From positions 1 through 50,967 of the forward strand of contig JAJYDN010000016.1 in the NCBI GenBank assembly GCA_021777535.1: a stretch of DNA of 50,967 nucleotides, written 5' to 3'. Positions 11,665 through 19,045 of this stretch are shown here, one piece after another. The number at the start of each line of letters is the position of its first letter. Positions within the stretch are counted from its first letter, which is position 1. Below the pieces are notes generated by a model. That model ran no database searches. It was not told the DNA's origin and saw only the letters and a list, made by a program, of their open reading frames with translations. The translations under genes were made by a program, and so were the position numbers. The stretch is from Pseudomonadota bacterium. Its GTDB lineage: Bacteria; Pseudomonadota; Gammaproteobacteria; Acidiferrobacterales; Acidiferrobacteraceae.

Positions 11665-12768
11665 ATGTCCGCCATTCTCAAAGATCCGCTGGCATTCGAG
11701 GAACTGTGCGAGCGGGTCGCCACGGCCGCGTTCGTCGGACTCGATACCGAGTTTGTGCGCGAGCGCACGTATTTCGCTGAACTTGCACTCATCCAGCTCG
11801 CGCTGCCGGATGGCCTCGTCCTCGTCGACCCGCTTGCCATCGATGTCGCGTCCCTTGGCGAGGCGCTGCAGGGCCCCGGCATCAAGATCCTCCATGCGGG
11901 ACGCCAGGATCTCGAGCTGATCCTGCAGGAGACAGGCCGCCTGCCGAGCCCCTTGTTCGACACGCAGGTCGCGGCGGCCCTTCTGGGCTTCGATGAGCAG
12001 ATCGGCTACGGCGGTCTGGTCGAAAAGATCCTGGATGTGCGCCTGCCCAAGGATGCCACGCGCACCAACTGGGCCAATCGTCCGCTGACCGACCACCAGG
12101 TGCGCTACGCGCTCGACGATGTCCGCTACCTGAAACCCCTCCACGAACGGCTCATGGAGGGACTGGCGGAACAGGGGCGCGCGGTCTGGCTGCAAGAGGA
12201 TGTGGCCGCCTTGTCGCAACCGGACCTCTACCACTTCGACCCGGCACAGCTCACGCGCCGCTACCGGCAGGGATCGGCGATGCCCGCCGCTGCACAGGCA
12301 CGGTTTGGTACGCTCCTGCGCTGGCGGGAAGGGGCCGCGCGCGACGCCAACCTGCCGCGCGGCTGGATCCTCCCCGATGCGGTGCTGGTCGATCTCGCCC
12401 ACCGGCCGCCGGCGCATCCGGACGAGCTCACGGGACGCCGCGGCGTCGAGGAGCGCGCCGCACGCAGGTGGGGGGCGGCGGTGTGCGAAGCGCTGCGGAC
12501 CACCCCCGCCGTAGCGGCGCATGTCTGGCCGCCTTCGACCCTGACGGCCGAACAGACCGCCCTCTACGAAGCCTTCGTGTCGCTCGTGGATGCGCGCGCA
12601 CGGAGGCTCGGGATCAGCGCGAGCCTGCTCGCGACCCGGCGCGACATCAAGGACATCGTCCAGGGCGGCCCTGCGGAATCACTGGAAAATGGCTGGCGGG
12701 CACAAATCCTGGGCGACGAGGGCCGCGCCCTCCTTGAGCGTGCGCGCCGCCATGCCCAGCCTGCATAG
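11665..12768 (+). CDS. rnd: Ribonuclease D
   Basis: A 367-aa 3'-5' exoribonuclease that trims tRNA precursors. The DEDD exonuclease residues are visible: the D-x-E pair in FVGLDTEFVRERTYF, the second Asp in ILHAGRQDLELIL, and the Y-x3-D motif in VRYALDDVRYL. HRDC-type helices follow in the C-terminal half. Start 11665 is chosen because MSAILKDPLAFEELCERV is a typical RNase D N-terminus; the longer frame from 11503 reads through non-conserved sequence. Its last 17 bases overlap engB in another frame, indicating translational coupling. Confidence 0.93.
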   Translation: MSAILKDPLAFEELCERVATAAFVGLDTEFVRERTYFAELALIQLALPDGLVLVDPLAIDVASLGEALQGPGIKILHAGRQDLELILQETGRLPSPLFDTQVAAALLGFDEQIGYGGLVEKILDVRLPKDATRTNWANRPLTDHQVRYALDDVRYLKPLHERLMEGLAEQGRAVWLQEDVAALSQPDLYHFDPAQLTRRYRQGSAMPAAAQARFGTLLRWREGAARDANLPRGWILPDAVLVDLAHRPPAHPDELTGRRGVEERAARRWGAAVCEALRTTPAVAAHVWPPSTLTAEQTALYEAFVSLVDARARRLGISASLLATRRDIKDIVQGGPAESLENGWRAQILGDEGRALLERARRHAQPA

Positions 12769-13345
12769 CGCGCAATTCGTCGCGGGCGCCACGAAGCTCC
12801 GTGACCTTCCCGCGGACCAGGGGCGCGAGATCGCCTTCACCGGGCGATCCAATGCCGGCAAATCGAGCGCCCTGAATCGCCTGACGGGACACACCGGGCT
12901 TGCGCGCGTAAGCAAGACCCCCGGCCGCACGCAACAGCTGAATGTATTCGCGCTCGACAGCCGCCACCGCCTGGTGGACTTGCCGGGCTATGGCTACGCC
13001 AAGGTCCCGGAGACCCTGCGCCAGCACTTTGCGCAACTGCTCACGGACTACCTGCGCAGCCGGCGCTCACTCTGCGGTCTTGTGCTGCTCGCCGATATCC
13101 GGCAGGGCCTGAAGCAGGAAGACCAGGAGCTGGTACGCGCACGAAGCGACATACCGATCCTCGTCTTGTTGTCGAAAGCCGACAAACTGGGCCGCGGCGC
13201 GCAGAGGATGCAGGTGACGGCCGTCGCCCGCACCGTGCCCGAGAACTGCTACATCCTGCCGTTTTCGGCACACACGGGCGAGGGGACAGACGAGGCGCGG
13301 GCGCGAGTGGAGACGTTCCTGCGCGACCGCAGTGCCGCCCCATAG
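12752..13345 (+). CDS. engB: Ribosome biogenesis GTPase YihA/EngB
   Basis: A 197-aa TRAFAC GTPase. G1 is GRSNAGKSSALN (about 32-43), G2 lies around SKTPGRTQQLNVF, G3 is DLPGYGYAKV, G4 is LLSKADKL and G5 is around FSAHTGEG. EngB acts in large-subunit assembly. Start 12752 gives the standard N-terminus and overlaps the end of rnd by 17 bp. The gene is convergent with polA across about 2.3 kb, recalling the polA-spf-yihA order of enterics but with two extra genes between. The stop lies in a small inverted repeat (TGCCGC...GCGGCA) that may serve as a weak terminator. Confidence 0.95.
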   Translation: MPSLHSAQFVAGATKLRDLPADQGREIAFTGRSNAGKSSALNRLTGHTGLARVSKTPGRTQQLNVFALDSRHRLVDLPGYGYAKVPETLRQHFAQLLTDYLRSRRSLCGLVLLADIRQGLKQEDQELVRARSDIPILVLLSKADKLGRGAQRMQVTAVARTVPENCYILPFSAHTGEGTDEARARVETFLRDRSAAP

Positions 13346-13524: not shown

Positions 13525-14508
13525 TTACTGCACAAAGATGTCGCTCAGGATGGTCCCGTTGCGTATGCCGTATTTGAGCGCGTGTTTCTGCTGATAGCCC
13601 GCCTTCGGCAAGCCGTAGAGCGCCTCGACGGTCCGCAGGAGATTGACGTGGGTCACGCCTTTGCCCTCCGCGTAATTGCCAGGCCGGATATGGGCGCCCG
13701 CGATGATCGTCGGTATCCTGTTTTTTACGTCGCGGTTTGCGCTCGCGGGGTTGGTGAGCCCCTGGAAACCTGACCAGTCGCCATTTTCATCCCAGGTCAC
13801 GATCAACAGGCTGTCGTGTGTCTTTGCCCACCGGTAGTAAGGGCCGATGTTCTTCCGCAGCCACTCGTCTCCCCGCCTGACGCGCATCGAGGGATCGCCG
13901 CTGTGCATGTCGTCAAGCAGGTTCGGGACGACGATGCTTACGGTCGGAAGCCTGGAGAAATCCTTTGGAAACTGCGTGAACGGGAGATTGACGGATGTCG
14001 CTGCGGTCTTTCCGTTGGGGATGTTGGCGAAGCTGATCCACGGAACGTGCTTTCTGGCATACAGGGGCGCTTTGCCGGCACGGTCACCGATCGACGGCAG
14101 GCCCTGCGCATAGCCCTTGAACGTATAGCCTGCGTGGATCAGCTCCTCGCCCAGATTCGGGGCCATGAAGGGGTATCGCGGGTTGTTCCTGCGGGTCGGT
14201 ATGACGTCGTGATACCCGACATGCTGGTTGCTGCCGGAGAAGATCCAGAAATAATTGCCCTCGCTGTCATGCTCGTCTGCAAACATCCTTGTCAGATTGG
14301 CGCCCTGTTTGAGGAGGACATCATTTATGTACGGGGCGTTCTTGTTGCCGACGATGTCCGAGTAGTACTTGTTCTCTTCGATCACGATCACGACATGCGC
14401 GTACTTCGGAAGAAGTGCCGGCAGCCGCACCAACGCCGCGTTCGATGGCTGGCCCGATGCCCCAAGACACGCAAAGGCGGCAAGAACGGCGGCGAGAGTC
14501 TTTCCCAT
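13525..14508 (-). CDS. Secreted phosphoesterase (acid phosphatase/phospholipase C superfamily)
   Basis: A 327-aa protein from start 14508. MGKTLAAVLAAFACLGASG is a signal peptide, so the product is periplasmic or secreted. The phosphoesterase-family core follows: VVIVIEENKYYSDIVGN with the metal-binding Glu, then DEHDSEGNYFWIFSGSNQHV, LLDDMHSGD, and LLIVTWDENGDW near the C-terminus. These match the PF04185 AcpA/PlcC fold; the substrate (phosphomonoester or phospholipid) is open. An alternative start at 14520 has similar context. It follows the flavin reductase gene on the same strand after about 150 bp, without obvious functional link. Confidence 0.83.
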   Translation of the reverse strand: MGKTLAAVLAAFACLGASGQPSNAALVRLPALLPKYAHVVIVIEENKYYSDIVGNKNAPYINDVLLKQGANLTRMFADEHDSEGNYFWIFSGSNQHVGYHDVIPTRRNNPRYPFMAPNLGEELIHAGYTFKGYAQGLPSIGDRAGKAPLYARKHVPWISFANIPNGKTAATSVNLPFTQFPKDFSRLPTVSIVVPNLLDDMHSGDPSMRVRRGDEWLRKNIGPYYRWAKTHDSLLIVTWDENGDWSGFQGLTNPASANRDVKNRIPTIIAGAHIRPGNYAEGKGVTHVNLLRTVEALYGLPKAGYQQKHALKYGIRNGTILSDIFVQ

Positions 14509-14657
14509 GGTGGTACCCATCCCCGGTCCGTGACTGATCGGTCCGGATGATGCCACTGCGCGCAACCGGCCTCAAATGAAGAATTTGTTGCAGGAGAAAA
14601 CGGCCCCTGAACCGGGCGGCCGGCGCAGGCATGCCGGTCACCCGGAGCTTGCTGGAC

Positions 14658-15248
14658 CTAAACGCCGGCCGGAAGCTTCGCTGCCATCGCTTTCCTCCGG
14701 TCGATCCGGCGCCCGTCGACGATGAACGTGCCGTCGCCCACGGCGTGGATGGTCCGCTTCTCCCTGCGCGCCGGATTCACATACGCGGCCAGCCCCTCGA
14801 GCACGAGAATGTCGTGCTTTTTGACGACATCGACGACCCTGCACTCGATATTCGCCAGACACTCCTGGATGAGGGGCGCCCTGACGAACGCACCCTGCAG
14901 GGGCGTGAGCCTGAAACGGGCAAACTTGTCGGTGTCGGAGCCGGAGCACGTCCCTATGCCGACCACTTGATCGAGCATGTCGACGGCGGGGATGGCAAGG
15001 ACACACTCCCGGGTCTTTCGGAGCGCTGCGTAGGAATGGTTCCAGACGCCCGTGGTGATGGCGAAGAGCGGAGTGAAATCCAGAACCATGGTCCATGAGA
15101 TGGTCATGATGTTGTTCTTCTTTCCGTCGCAGGTCGTCACGAGGACGACGGGGCCGGGCTCCATCAGCGTAAAGGCCTTGGCGAGTTTCAGCTGACGCAC
15201 GAAGACACCTCCCGACATCTGCCTGGCATCAGGCGGCACAGGAAGCAT
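14658..15248 (-). CDS. Flavin reductase-like (FMN-binding split barrel) protein
   Basis: A 196-aa protein with the flavin-reductase-like core: GPVVLVTTCDGKKNNIMTIS, then FTPLFAITTGVWNHSYAALRKT, GIGTCSGSDTDKFA and IECRVVDVVKKHDILVLEG. Such proteins bind FMN and either reduce flavin for a partner or act on small substrates. Start 15248 is preferred for GGAG 5 nt upstream; a start at 15218 would drop ten residues. The longer frame from 15518 has unrelated composition and lies in the polA-downstream spacer. No partner monooxygenase is adjacent. Confidence 0.83.
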   Translation of the reverse strand: MLPVPPDARQMSGGVFVRQLKLAKAFTLMEPGPVVLVTTCDGKKNNIMTISWTMVLDFTPLFAITTGVWNHSYAALRKTRECVLAIPAVDMLDQVVGIGTCSGSDTDKFARFRLTPLQGAFVRAPLIQECLANIECRVVDVVKKHDILVLEGLAAYVNPARREKRTIHAVGDGTFIVDGRRIDRRKAMAAKLPAGV

Positions 15249-15515
15249 TGTACTCCGCTCGGGCGGCGCGCCGATTGCGGACGGAAGCACCACGCAAGGA
15301 GCGCCGCCGGTACGGACCAGGCCATGGATGGGGCGGCGTTCCCGTTGGCCGCATCCTCCGGATGGGCGGCCTTTCGGGCATTTCGCGCGCCACCGGCAAT
15401 CGGGCAGCCGCGGCGTCATGGAGATGCCGGACACCGATGAAGAAGGGCTCGCCTGATGATGCGGGTGTGCGGCTTGTGCACCGGATGACGGCGCGCACCC
15501 GTCGCGGGATCTGGG

Positions 15516-15623
15516 CAAAAAAACGCCCCGGACATAAGGGAGAACATCCGGGGCTTTAATAGGTCCCAGATCTGGCGATCCGGGTTACCCGCTCAGGGAG
15601 GAGAAGCGGGTAAGGACTCTGTG
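15516..15623 (-). ncRNA. Candidate small regulatory RNA downstream of polA (Spot 42 position)
   Basis: After the polA stop there is a -10-like TATGTAAT (15629-15636) with a weak -35. The predicted RNA begins around 15622. It can form a short hairpin (15614-15626), a perfect 9-bp stem at 15585-15593/15605-15613 with loop TCTCCTCCCTG, a self-complementary CCAGATCTGG, and an 8-bp terminator hairpin with loop TGTTCTCCCTTATG followed by seven U. Both big loops expose TCTCC, complementary to Shine-Dalgarno sequences. Length (about 108 nt) and place match Spot 42, but I see no primary-sequence similarity to it. The transcript is predicted, not shown. Confidence 0.6.
15517..15554 (-). terminator. Rho-independent terminator after polA/candidate sRNA
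   Basis: On the minus strand GCCCCGGA pairs with TCCGGGGC across a 14-nt loop and is followed by G then seven T. It would end both polA read-through and the candidate sRNA. On the plus strand the tail is only TTTAAT, so the minus strand is the likely working direction. Confidence 0.85.
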
Positions 15624-15660
15624 TCCTGATTACATAGACCCACGGGCGCCGTGGAAGTTC

Positions 15661-18306
15661 CTAATGCGCCTCGTCCCAGTTCGCGCCCGTGCCACAATCG
15701 ACGACCAACGGTACCGAAAGCTCCGCAGCATGCGTCATGCAATCGACAGCGGCGGCCTGCAGGACGGCCAGTTCCTGAGGCCGGGCCTCAAAGACGAGTT
15801 CGTCATGAACCTGCATGATCATGCGGGATGTAAAGCCCTTATTGGCTATAAAAGCGTCGATCTTCAGCATCGCCCGCTTTATGAGATCCGCCGCGGTGCC
15901 CTGCAGGGGCGCATTGATGGCCGTCCGCTCGGCATATTGCCGGCGCGCATTGTTGCTGGCCTTGATGTCCGGCACATAGAGGCGCCGCCCAAACAGGGTC
16001 TCCACATAACCCCGCTCCCGAGCCGCATGGCGCATGTCATCCATATAGGCGCGCACACCAGGATAGCGGGCGAAATACAGATCGCAATACGCCTGTGCCG
16101 CGCCCTGGTCGATCTTCAGCTGGCGGGCGAGCCCAAAGGCCGACATGCCGTACATGAGTCCGAAATTGATGGTCTTGGCCGCGCGGCGCTGTTCATCCGT
16201 CACGTCGGCAAGGGCGACGCCGAAGACTTCTGCTGCGGTGGCGCGGTGGACGTCGCGGCCCTCCTTGAACGCCCGCACGAGGCCCGGGTCGCCCGACAGG
16301 TGCGCCATGAGCCGCAGTTCGATCTGCGAGTAGTCGGCGGCAAGCAACGTGAAACCCGGGCTCGCAATGAAGGCGCGGCGCACCCGCCGCCCGTCCTCGG
16401 TCCGGACCGGGATGTTCTGCAGATTCGGAGCGCTTGACGACAGGCGGCCGGTTGCCGCCACCGCCTGATGGTAGGTCGTGTGGATCCGGCCGGTGCGCGG
16501 GTCGCACATGTGCGGCAATTTGTCGACGTAGGTGCTCTTCAACTTGCCAAGCGCCCGATAGTCGAGGATGCGCTGCGGGAGCGGATAGTCGAGAGCGAGC
16601 TCGGCCAGCACTTCCTCGGCGGTCGATGGCTGCCCTTTGGGGGTGCGCCGCTTCACGGGCAGTTTCAGGTCGACGAACAGAATCTGCTGGATCTGGCCTG
16701 GAGAATTGAGATTGAAAGGGCCGCCGGCGAGCGCAAAGGCCTCGGCCTCGATCGCGCGCATGCGTTCCTCCAGGATCTCCCCCTGGCGCGCCAACATCGC
16801 CCGATCTATCGCCACGCCATAGCTTTCGATACGGGCGAGAACCGGGGACAACGGCAGCTCGATTTCGCGATAGACGAAGCGCAAGCCCTCCTCGGTGGCC
16901 AGGCGTTCGCTCAGTACGTCACGCAGCAGCCCGCAGGCGCGCACGCGCCCGGCGCCGATGCGGGCGAGATCCTCATCGCCCACGTCGCCAAAGGCCGTCT
17001 GGTTGCGGCCGCGCCCGCAGAGCGCCTCCATGGTCGTGATGCCCTCGCCCAGATACTTGAGCGACAGCGCCGGCAGCGTGTAGTCGGCCGCGCCGCTGTC
17101 CAAGACATATGCGGCAAGCATCAGGTCGTCTTCGACCGGGCCTGGCACCGGCAATGCGAGCAGGCGCTGCAGGTACTTGCCGTCATGGACGACCTTCGGC
17201 GGGCCGTGCTCGAGCAGGTCGCGCACGGGCTGAGCCAGTTGGGCGAAGGCGCCGAGCAGCGGGTCCTCGAGGGGAATGACCGCGGCCTGGTCGCCCGCGC
17301 CCAGCGCGAGCGCCAGGGGACGCCCGTCGAGAAACCAGAAATCCACCAGAAGGCTCCTGGCCGCGCGCGCCCGTGCGCACCACGCGGCCACGGCGGCCGC
17401 ATCGCGGAGGATCGCCGCCGCAGCCACCGCTTTCGCCTGTTCCGGACCGAGCTCGGCCAGCCAGGTCTTGAATTCGAACCGCCGGTAAAGCGCGCGCAGG
17501 CGTTCGGTATCGGGTTCGTGCGGGACGAGATCGGCCACCGACACCGCAAGCGGCACGTCACGCCGGATGGTGACGAGTTCGCGGCTTAAAGCCAGACCAG
17601 GCGCCGCCTCCCGCAGCGCGCGCCCCGCCTGTCCCGGGATCTCCTCCTGGTGGGCGAGGACACCCTCGAGCGAACCGTATTCTTGCAGCCACTTGGCGGC
17701 GGTTTTCGGTCCGCAGCCAGGGACCCCCGGCACGTTGTCGACCTTGTCGCCCGTAAGCGCCAGGAAATCGGCGATCCGCGCGGGCGGAACCCCGAACCGC
17801 GCCTCCACGGCGGCGCTGTCCGAAACGGCAGCCGTCATCGTGTTGACGAGCGTCACCTGCGGTTCCACCAGTTGCGCCATGTCCTTGTCGCCGGTCGAGA
17901 TGATCACCTCGTAACCTGCGGCCACGGCGCGTGCGGCCAAAGTCCCGATGACGTCGTCGGCCTCGAAACCTGGTACCGCCAGAAGCGGCAATCCCTGCGC
18001 CTCGATGGCCTCATGGAGCGGCTCGATCTGGGTGACGAGATCGTCCGGCATGGCCTCGCGCGTGGCCTTGTAATCGGCATAGAGGGCGTCGCGGAAGGTT
18101 GGCCCCCTGGCATCGAAAACGATGGCGAGCGCCTTTGGCGCGTAATCGGCACGCAGCTTGCGCAGCATGTTCAGCACGCCGTAGATTGCGCCTGTCGGCT
18201 GGCCTGCAGATGTGCGCAGGTCCGGCATGGCATGAAACGCCCGATACAGATAGGATGACGCATCCACAAGAACCAGGCGCGGCGCTTTGGTGTCGCTTGA
18301 GGTCAT
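15661..18306 (-). CDS. polA: DNA polymerase I
   Basis: An 881-aa protein with the full three-domain plan. The 5'-3' exonuclease starts LVLVDASSYLYRAFHAMP and has ADDVIGTLA, STGDKDMAQLV and TGDKVDNVPG. The 3'-5' exonuclease-like domain (about 310-500) looks weakened: the first DxE pair is not evident (LVDFWFLDG), so proofreading may be reduced. The polymerase domain has motif A LLAADYSQIELRLMAHLSGD, motif B RRAAKTINFGLMYGMSAFGL and motif C MQVHDELVFE. Start 18306 fits known N-termini; starts at 18315 and 18381 are in frame. It faces the LOG-family gene head to head with overlapping 5' ends. Confidence 0.95.
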   Translation of the reverse strand: MTSSDTKAPRLVLVDASSYLYRAFHAMPDLRTSAGQPTGAIYGVLNMLRKLRADYAPKALAIVFDARGPTFRDALYADYKATREAMPDDLVTQIEPLHEAIEAQGLPLLAVPGFEADDVIGTLAARAVAAGYEVIISTGDKDMAQLVEPQVTLVNTMTAAVSDSAAVEARFGVPPARIADFLALTGDKVDNVPGVPGCGPKTAAKWLQEYGSLEGVLAHQEEIPGQAGRALREAAPGLALSRELVTIRRDVPLAVSVADLVPHEPDTERLRALYRRFEFKTWLAELGPEQAKAVAAAAILRDAAAVAAWCARARAARSLLVDFWFLDGRPLALALGAGDQAAVIPLEDPLLGAFAQLAQPVRDLLEHGPPKVVHDGKYLQRLLALPVPGPVEDDLMLAAYVLDSGAADYTLPALSLKYLGEGITTMEALCGRGRNQTAFGDVGDEDLARIGAGRVRACGLLRDVLSERLATEEGLRFVYREIELPLSPVLARIESYGVAIDRAMLARQGEILEERMRAIEAEAFALAGGPFNLNSPGQIQQILFVDLKLPVKRRTPKGQPSTAEEVLAELALDYPLPQRILDYRALGKLKSTYVDKLPHMCDPRTGRIHTTYHQAVAATGRLSSSAPNLQNIPVRTEDGRRVRRAFIASPGFTLLAADYSQIELRLMAHLSGDPGLVRAFKEGRDVHRATAAEVFGVALADVTDEQRRAAKTINFGLMYGMSAFGLARQLKIDQGAAQAYCDLYFARYPGVRAYMDDMRHAARERGYVETLFGRRLYVPDIKASNNARRQYAERTAINAPLQGTAADLIKRAMLKIDAFIANKGFTSRMIMQVHDELVFEARPQELAVLQAAAVDCMTHAAELSVPLVVDCGTGANWDEAH

Positions 18307-18313
18307 GACGTCC

Positions 18314-19045
18314 ATGGAATCCAGCAAAAACCCCTTCAAGCCCAAACATCCTCTCGCGCCCGCCCGTGACGGGGCGCTCACGCGCGAGGCATGGAAAATC
18401 TTTCAGATCATGTCCGAGTTTGTCGAAGGCTACGAGGCCCTCGCCCAGATCCGCCCGTCGGTCAGCATTTTCGGTTCAGCCCGCGTTGCCGCAGATCACC
18501 CCTACTTCAAGCTTGCCGAGGACATTGCGCGCCGCTTGTCGGACGCGGGATTCAGTGTCGTAAGCGGCGGCGGACCCGGCATCATGGCGGCCGCCAACAA
18601 GGGCGCCTATGCGGGGCGCTCGCCAAGCGTCGGACTGAACATCCGCCTGCCCCATGAGCAGATCGGAAATCCCTATCAGGACATCCGCCTGACCTTCCAG
18701 CACTTCTTCGCGCGCAAGGTCATGTTCGTGAAGTATGCCACAGCCTACGTGGTGATGCCCGGCGGGTTCGGTACCCTGGACGAGCTCATGGAAATCCTGA
18801 CGCTCATCCAGACCGGCAAGAGCCGGCGTATCCCCGTCATCCTGGTCCATAGCCCCTTCTGGCATGGTCTCACCAGCTGGTTCCGGGAGACGATGGTGGC
18901 GGAAGGGGTCATCGGTCCCTCCGACCTCGACCTTTTCGTGACGCTCGATCGCCCGGAAGATGTGCTCGAGGCCATATTTGGCTATTATGAGGCAAGCGGA
19001 TTCGAGCCTTCCGAAGAGGAAAAAGAGATCCAGCTCAACCTGTAA
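18314..19045 (+). CDS. LOG-family (TIGR00730) Rossmann-fold protein
   Basis: A 243-aa protein with SVSIFGSARVAADHPYF, VVSGGGPGIMAAANKGAY and the hallmark MPGGFGTLDELMEI (PGGxGTxxE). Members hydrolyse nucleoside 5'-monophosphates to base and ribose phosphate (cytokinin-activating LOG in plants, PpnN-like nucleosidases in bacteria). The N-terminal AWKIFQIMSEFVEGYE is a family feature, so the start must lie near 18305-18314; GAGG at 18299-18302 favours 18314. This places its start inside the polA start region on the opposite strand. thrB follows 19 bp downstream, probably in one operon. Confidence 0.9.
   Translation: MESSKNPFKPKHPLAPARDGALTREAWKIFQIMSEFVEGYEALAQIRPSVSIFGSARVAADHPYFKLAEDIARRLSDAGFSVVSGGGPGIMAAANKGAYAGRSPSVGLNIRLPHEQIGNPYQDIRLTFQHFFARKVMFVKYATAYVVMPGGFGTLDELMEILTLIQTGKSRRIPVILVHSPFWHGLTSWFRETMVAEGVIGPSDLDLFVTLDRPEDVLEAIFGYYEASGFEPSEEEKEIQLNL

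Follow-up and report, generated by a model that had tools for sequence, protein, structure and literature searches.

The closest described relative of the RNA reported here is the anti-hemB family (Rfam RF02837; also listed in PMC3521395), for whose role a search of the literature, mostly open-access, gave no explanation. For the Burkholderia homologue, expression as a small RNA with a start of its own and a terminated 3' end has been shown, and in B. cenocepacia, where it is ncS04, the 3' end was confirmed and the RNA was expressed and unchanged in the conditions tested (PMC5688073). sX13 represses mRNAs that carry G-rich motifs close to the start codon and is reported to be Hfq-independent, and its authors already remarked on the polA locus that it shares with Spot 42 and the alpha-r7 RNAs (PMC3771888). 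ErsA has been described as strictly sigma-22-dependent (PMC7565897), and GAACTT-16bp-TCTTA has been reported as an RpoE promoter (PMC9577009). Our mostly open-access literature search found no paper linking anti-hemB to the polA locus or reporting a class-wide promoter. Here we describe a member of this known sRNA family in a gammaproteobacterium of the order Acidiferrobacterales; the new part is its sigma-E/AlgU-type promoter.

We analyzed a stretch of 50,967 nucleotides, referred to as the window. Its sole Rfam match at the curated threshold was anti-hemB at 15612-15517 on the minus strand (54.4 bits against a cut-off of 49.5, full length 1-81, E 5e-10); matches to ncS037, ar14 and ErsA on the same strand were sub-threshold. 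Together with the match to our model R2 (see below), this defines an sRNA gene at 15517..15627 on the minus strand, with a start predicted at ~15627 from the -10 element GTCTAT at 15639-15634 and hence a predicted transcript of ~111 nt. Four hairpins are predicted in it. A 5' hairpin (AGGAC-ACAGA-GTCCT, 15613..15627) is followed by hairpin 1 (15586..15612), in which TCTCCTCCC at 15604-15596 forms the loop UCUCCUCCC on an 8-9-bp stem that covaries in relatives, where the loop is invariant. This loop contains CCUCC, as in the anti-Shine-Dalgarno at the 3' end of 16S rRNA. Next come a covarying middle hairpin (CCCGGAUC-GCCA-GAUCUGGG, 15565..15584) and an intrinsic terminator (15517..15554), identified by fold, terminator call and loop conservation, whose stem (15554-15525) presents TTCTCCC at 15544-15538 as the loop UUCUCCC and is followed by a T7 run at 15523-15517, the U7 tail. 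The anti-hemB features are thus all present: CUCCUCCC in the loop of hairpin 1, a middle hairpin, and a U-tailed terminator. The minus strand folds at -54.8 kcal/mol compared with -35.5 +/- 3.9 for dinucleotide shuffles (z -4.99; 0/200 as stable). A plus-strand element was rejected on the weaker fold of that strand (z -2.8) and its zero Rfam matches, and a coding RNA, like SpfP of Spot 42, on finding by eye no plausible conserved short ORF in three frames. The motif CTCCTCCC occurs twice in the window against 1.9 expected and is not significant by itself; the significance of the sRNA comes instead from the Rfam match, conservation and covariation. Judged from sequence, the stretch behind polA is a real small-RNA gene of the catalogued anti-hemB family with a predicted transcript. 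The initial annotation had placed a candidate sRNA gene behind polA, at the position of Spot 42, with two C-rich hairpin loops and a U7 terminator, and all of these were found on the minus strand. Its suggestion of a new translation-control RNA does not hold, because the RNA belongs to RF02837. The strand, the 5' and middle hairpins and the promoter were absent from that annotation.

Among the 96 genomes nearest to the window, 76 had a match at E 0.01, 35 of them above the cut-off. Conservation of the two loops in relatives had been set beforehand as the test on which the proposal should stand or fall, and it leaves the proposal unrefuted: loop 1 carries CUCCC in all 40 aligned members of the order, and the terminator loop carries CUCCC or UCCCC in 38 of 40. 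A model built from the order members (R1) was used to gather class-wide matches, from which a second model (R2) was built with the window left out. R2 scores the window at 83.5 bits and finds members in 100 of the 184 sampled genomes of the class, whereas few lie outside it (a phylum-wide search gave matches in 15/199, 14 of those within the class). In the class-wide R1 matches, standard pairs fill 92.4% of cells compared with 75.0% in shuffles, and 21 of the 22 pairs show changes on both sides; the alignment behind these pair counts was fitted to the model and leans towards structure, a bias that sliding and shuffling controls limit, if not fully. The covariation score is 0.491 against 0.183 when shuffled, and sliding the partners by one column lowers it to ~0.11. 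At least two sRNA copies lie close together in other genomes (L092, L084, L114, L101, L293/L305), so that local duplication is recurrent.

The upstream neighbour on the same strand is polA, encoding DNA polymerase I (15661..18381, minus; Pfam DNA_pol_A, 5_3_exonuc). Across the genomes with both a match and a listed polA, the sRNA lies less than 2 kb downstream of polA in 59 of 95; it is on the polA strand at 60 of 63 places, at a median distance of 129 nt from the polA end. On the other side, an ORF at 12590..13345 (plus; Pfam MMR_HSR1), whose true start is probably further in, encodes a GTPase of the engB/yihA/ysxC type, named from sequence and synteny. While engB is the convergent neighbour of the sRNA in relatives, it is two ORFs away in the window; phosphoesterase and flavin-reductase ORFs occupy 13525-15518 between the two, where many relatives have engB directly after the sRNA. 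Within the fetched flanks, engB is convergent on the sRNA 3' side in 21/40 order members and 49/76 class matches. We also collected a named set of 120 contig stretches in which the first hairpin is matched exactly; among those listed, most titles name Betaproteobacteria. In 104 of these stretches engB is present and convergent, its start mostly no more than a few hundred bases away, and polA is seen in only five. One contig titled as a Klebsiella pneumoniae MAG (L171 2083-2104) carries a betaproteobacterial-type sRNA with engB and by sequence looks mislabelled or contaminated. The B. cenocepacia RNA is encoded opposite the hemB (ALAD)-engB gap, and E. coli spf is flanked by polA and yihA. The shared neighbours being polA and engB, the family name anti-hemB would seem misleading, with hemB apparently a local feature of Betaproteobacteria. 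Because the order polA-sRNA-engB has been inherited throughout the class, 'displaced analogue', another suggestion of the initial annotation, is too weak a term.

The strongest functional clue, overlooked in the initial annotation, is a conserved sigma-E-type promoter. A -35 element GGAACTT (15655..15661, minus), which overlaps the last base of the polA stop codon, is followed after 15 nt by the -10 element GTCTAT (15634..15639, minus), found by pattern search; GGAACTT-N15-GTCTAT fits the sigma-E/AlgU-type consensus. This is the single match in the window, with 0.01 expected. Genome-wide, GAACTT-N15/16-GTCTR gave two matches compared with four for a backwards control. The pattern alone is thus not selective, and what counts is its conservation upstream of the sRNA. 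We found GAAC[TC]-N16-18-[GA]TC[TA] just upstream of the sRNA in 33/40 order members against 0.12 by chance, and in 47/74 class-wide members against 0.32, nearly always with one spacing and with 0 to 2 matches in neighbouring stretches. This looser pattern was chosen after viewing the upstream sequences, a stricter one with a final A in the -10 having missed the window itself, and it was likewise the pattern applied in the shuffle, neighbour-stretch and reverse-strand controls. In the named, mostly betaproteobacterial set the motif is present in 30/120 (0.44 expected). The motif is missing from roughly one in three class members and from three in four of the named set, so sigma-E control is not universal. 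The genome encodes RpoE (317.7 bits against an NCBIfam cut-off of 236.15); rpoE is itself preceded by GAACCTTTTTCCATGGACGTGGTCTTT, in the same layout as the sRNA promoter, and the ORF after it looks by eye like RseA.

A second paralogue, CCGCTCGTCCTCCTCCCTGAGCGG..., is present in the window's own genome at C75:18377-18493 (+) (L064 around 4002) and in relatives (L059-L069). It is not polA-linked and is nearly invariant in the family, with the sigma-E motif in 0/12. It has an AATAAT box and, upstream, a conserved direct repeat, TCCGACTTNGGTCYGATG, which suggest another activator; the ORF with KGG repeats that follows looks like a stress protein.

To what extent the loops suit ribosome-binding sites, as had been proposed for them, was assessed over about 0.46 Mb of the genome with crude ORF calls, so that single targets are leads only. 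A complement to loop 1 of at least 6 nt occurs in 22 of 289 start regions and in 2 shifted control regions, while the complement to the true anti-Shine-Dalgarno occurs in 20 start regions and 3 controls. An opposite-strand control gave 3 against 4. Scrambled purine-rich controls were also enriched (13 to 16 against 3). In its match to ribosome-binding sites, then, loop 1 is about equal to rRNA, which fits translation blocking. Because it matches any Shine-Dalgarno region, matching does not choose targets; starts with 7-8 nt matches to loop 1 include, as leads, those of an ammonium transporter, a SurA-like chaperone and a porin-like ORF. The last of these, at L269:4149-5300, has GAGGAGA ahead of its ATG and is a tentative first candidate. 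Hfq is present in the genome.

We consider it probable, at roughly 70%, that the window RNA is a trans-acting anti-hemB sRNA that is induced by envelope stress through sigma-E and uses its anti-Shine-Dalgarno loops to repress translation. In this genome, a sigma-E (RpoE/AlgU-type) promoter of the sRNA's own, at the polA end, would drive its transcription, which the intrinsic terminator would end, and RpoE would raise the sRNA level upon envelope stress. The loops UCUCCUCCC and UUCUCCC may then pair with the G-rich ribosome-binding sites of selected mRNAs, which would block their translation, with Hfq possibly binding the U-tail.

The chief alternative is a constitutive, sigma-70-driven RNA of the anti-hemB/sX13 type that acts as a general translation modulator, the sigma-E-like motif being secondary or unused here. 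Such an RNA would agree with the unchanged level of the Burkholderia homologue in tested conditions (PMC5688073), with sX13 loci and the second paralogue of the window's genome being without the motif, and with TATAAT-like boxes that overlap the -10 region in some relatives. We regard it as unlikely, if deserving of weight, given the near-fixed spacing of the motif in most order and class members and our finding no sigma-70 promoter in the sRNA region. Far less probable is that the locus is merely the polA mRNA 3' end and terminator with chance hairpins, or an sRNA cut from the polA 3' UTR. The sRNA does follow polA immediately, in the same orientation, and contains the only terminator found there, but it has its own conserved promoter, its upstream hairpins covary, and homologues occur away from polA, beside engB or in tandem arrays; on the promoter and these homologues we rejected a 3' UTR only. 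Least probable, and likewise rejected, is a genuine Spot 42 homologue too diverged to be recognized, since despite the same polA-sRNA-engB order and similar length of E. coli spf, R1 finds nothing at spf, RF00021 (cut-off 80 bits) has zero matches in the window even at a permissive threshold, spf is without a GAACTT/GTCT-type promoter, and the plan of C-rich loops differs.

The sigma-E-driven anti-hemB RNA proposed here can be set beside its described relatives. To anti-hemB itself, as Burkholderia RNA 7 or ncS04, the likeness is close: hairpin 1, CCGCUUCUCCUCCCUGAGCGGG, agrees almost letter for letter, and in relatives engB lies convergent beyond the 3' end. The B. cenocepacia RNA, however, sits opposite the hemB-engB gap and the window RNA behind polA; the Burkholderia loci examined are without a sigma-E-type promoter, unlike the window RNA; and the Burkholderia terminator loop does not have the CUCCC motif of the window terminator loop. 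With Spot 42 the window RNA has the locus alone in common. Gene order and orientation are the same at ~110 nt (polA adjacent, engB farther on in the window and adjacent in relatives), but we detected no similarity of sequence, structure or promoter, in keeping with the initial annotation, which had called the sequence unlike Spot 42. The ar14/cuckoo RNAs (NfeR1, CcsR) likewise carry an anti-Shine-Dalgarno motif in hairpin loops (PMC10746234). They belong to a different bacterial class and have CCUCCUCCC in three loops, whereas the window RNA has the long motif once, only loop 1 approaching it; the ar14/cuckoo model RF02344 scores 24.2 bits in the window against a cut-off of 58.8. sX13 of Xanthomonadaceae also lies behind polA and has stem-loops with C-rich loops (PMC3771888). 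Its model RF02232 (cut-off 50 bits) has zero matches in window or genome, R1 matches sX13 loci weakly (24.2 and 21.5 bits), and these loci are without the GAACTT/GTCT promoter of the window RNA. ErsA shares the polA-engB locus (PMC8575079), which in the window has polA adjacent and engB two ORFs off but adjacent in relatives, and a C-rich terminator loop. Its promoter, GAACTT-N15-GTCATA, has the same sigma-E/sigma-22 layout as GGAACTT-N15-GTCTAT. ErsA differs in being without a hairpin 1 bearing CCUCCC; R1 misses it, and its own model (Pseudomon-1, RF01719) reaches 20.4 bits in the window against a cut-off of 50.

Forms that look intermediate between these families are found in one genome (G212; L111 1501-2268), where four tandem sRNA copies lie between polA and engB. 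The copies score 36-42 bits for anti-hemB, up to 48.3 for sX13, 37.1 for ErsA, 38 for ar14 and 26.8 for ar7, all five below the curated cut-offs, and their sequences suggest common descent of several Rfam families. A single ancient family comprising anti-hemB, ErsA and sX13 is supported, not proven. In its fullest form we hold this reading tentatively, at somewhat less than even odds, because C-rich loops and terminators rich in G+C might also arise by convergence: the polA-engB gap of Gamma- and Betaproteobacteria would house one ancient sRNA family with C-rich anti-Shine-Dalgarno loops, ancestrally driven by sigma-E. From it anti-hemB, ErsA and sX13 would have diverged locally, and Spot 42 would either have replaced it later or have diverged to an extreme degree. 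If this is true, sigma-E-driven translational silencing from the polA-engB locus would count among the ancestral branches of the envelope stress response. For the family of the RNA described here, which has a member in more than half of the sampled genomes of the class, the promoter and the inherited polA-engB locus point to a specific role, open to testing, in regulating translation under envelope stress. The conserved sigma-E-type promoter thereby offers the anti-hemB family a function that can be tested and connects it with ErsA, which is well studied.
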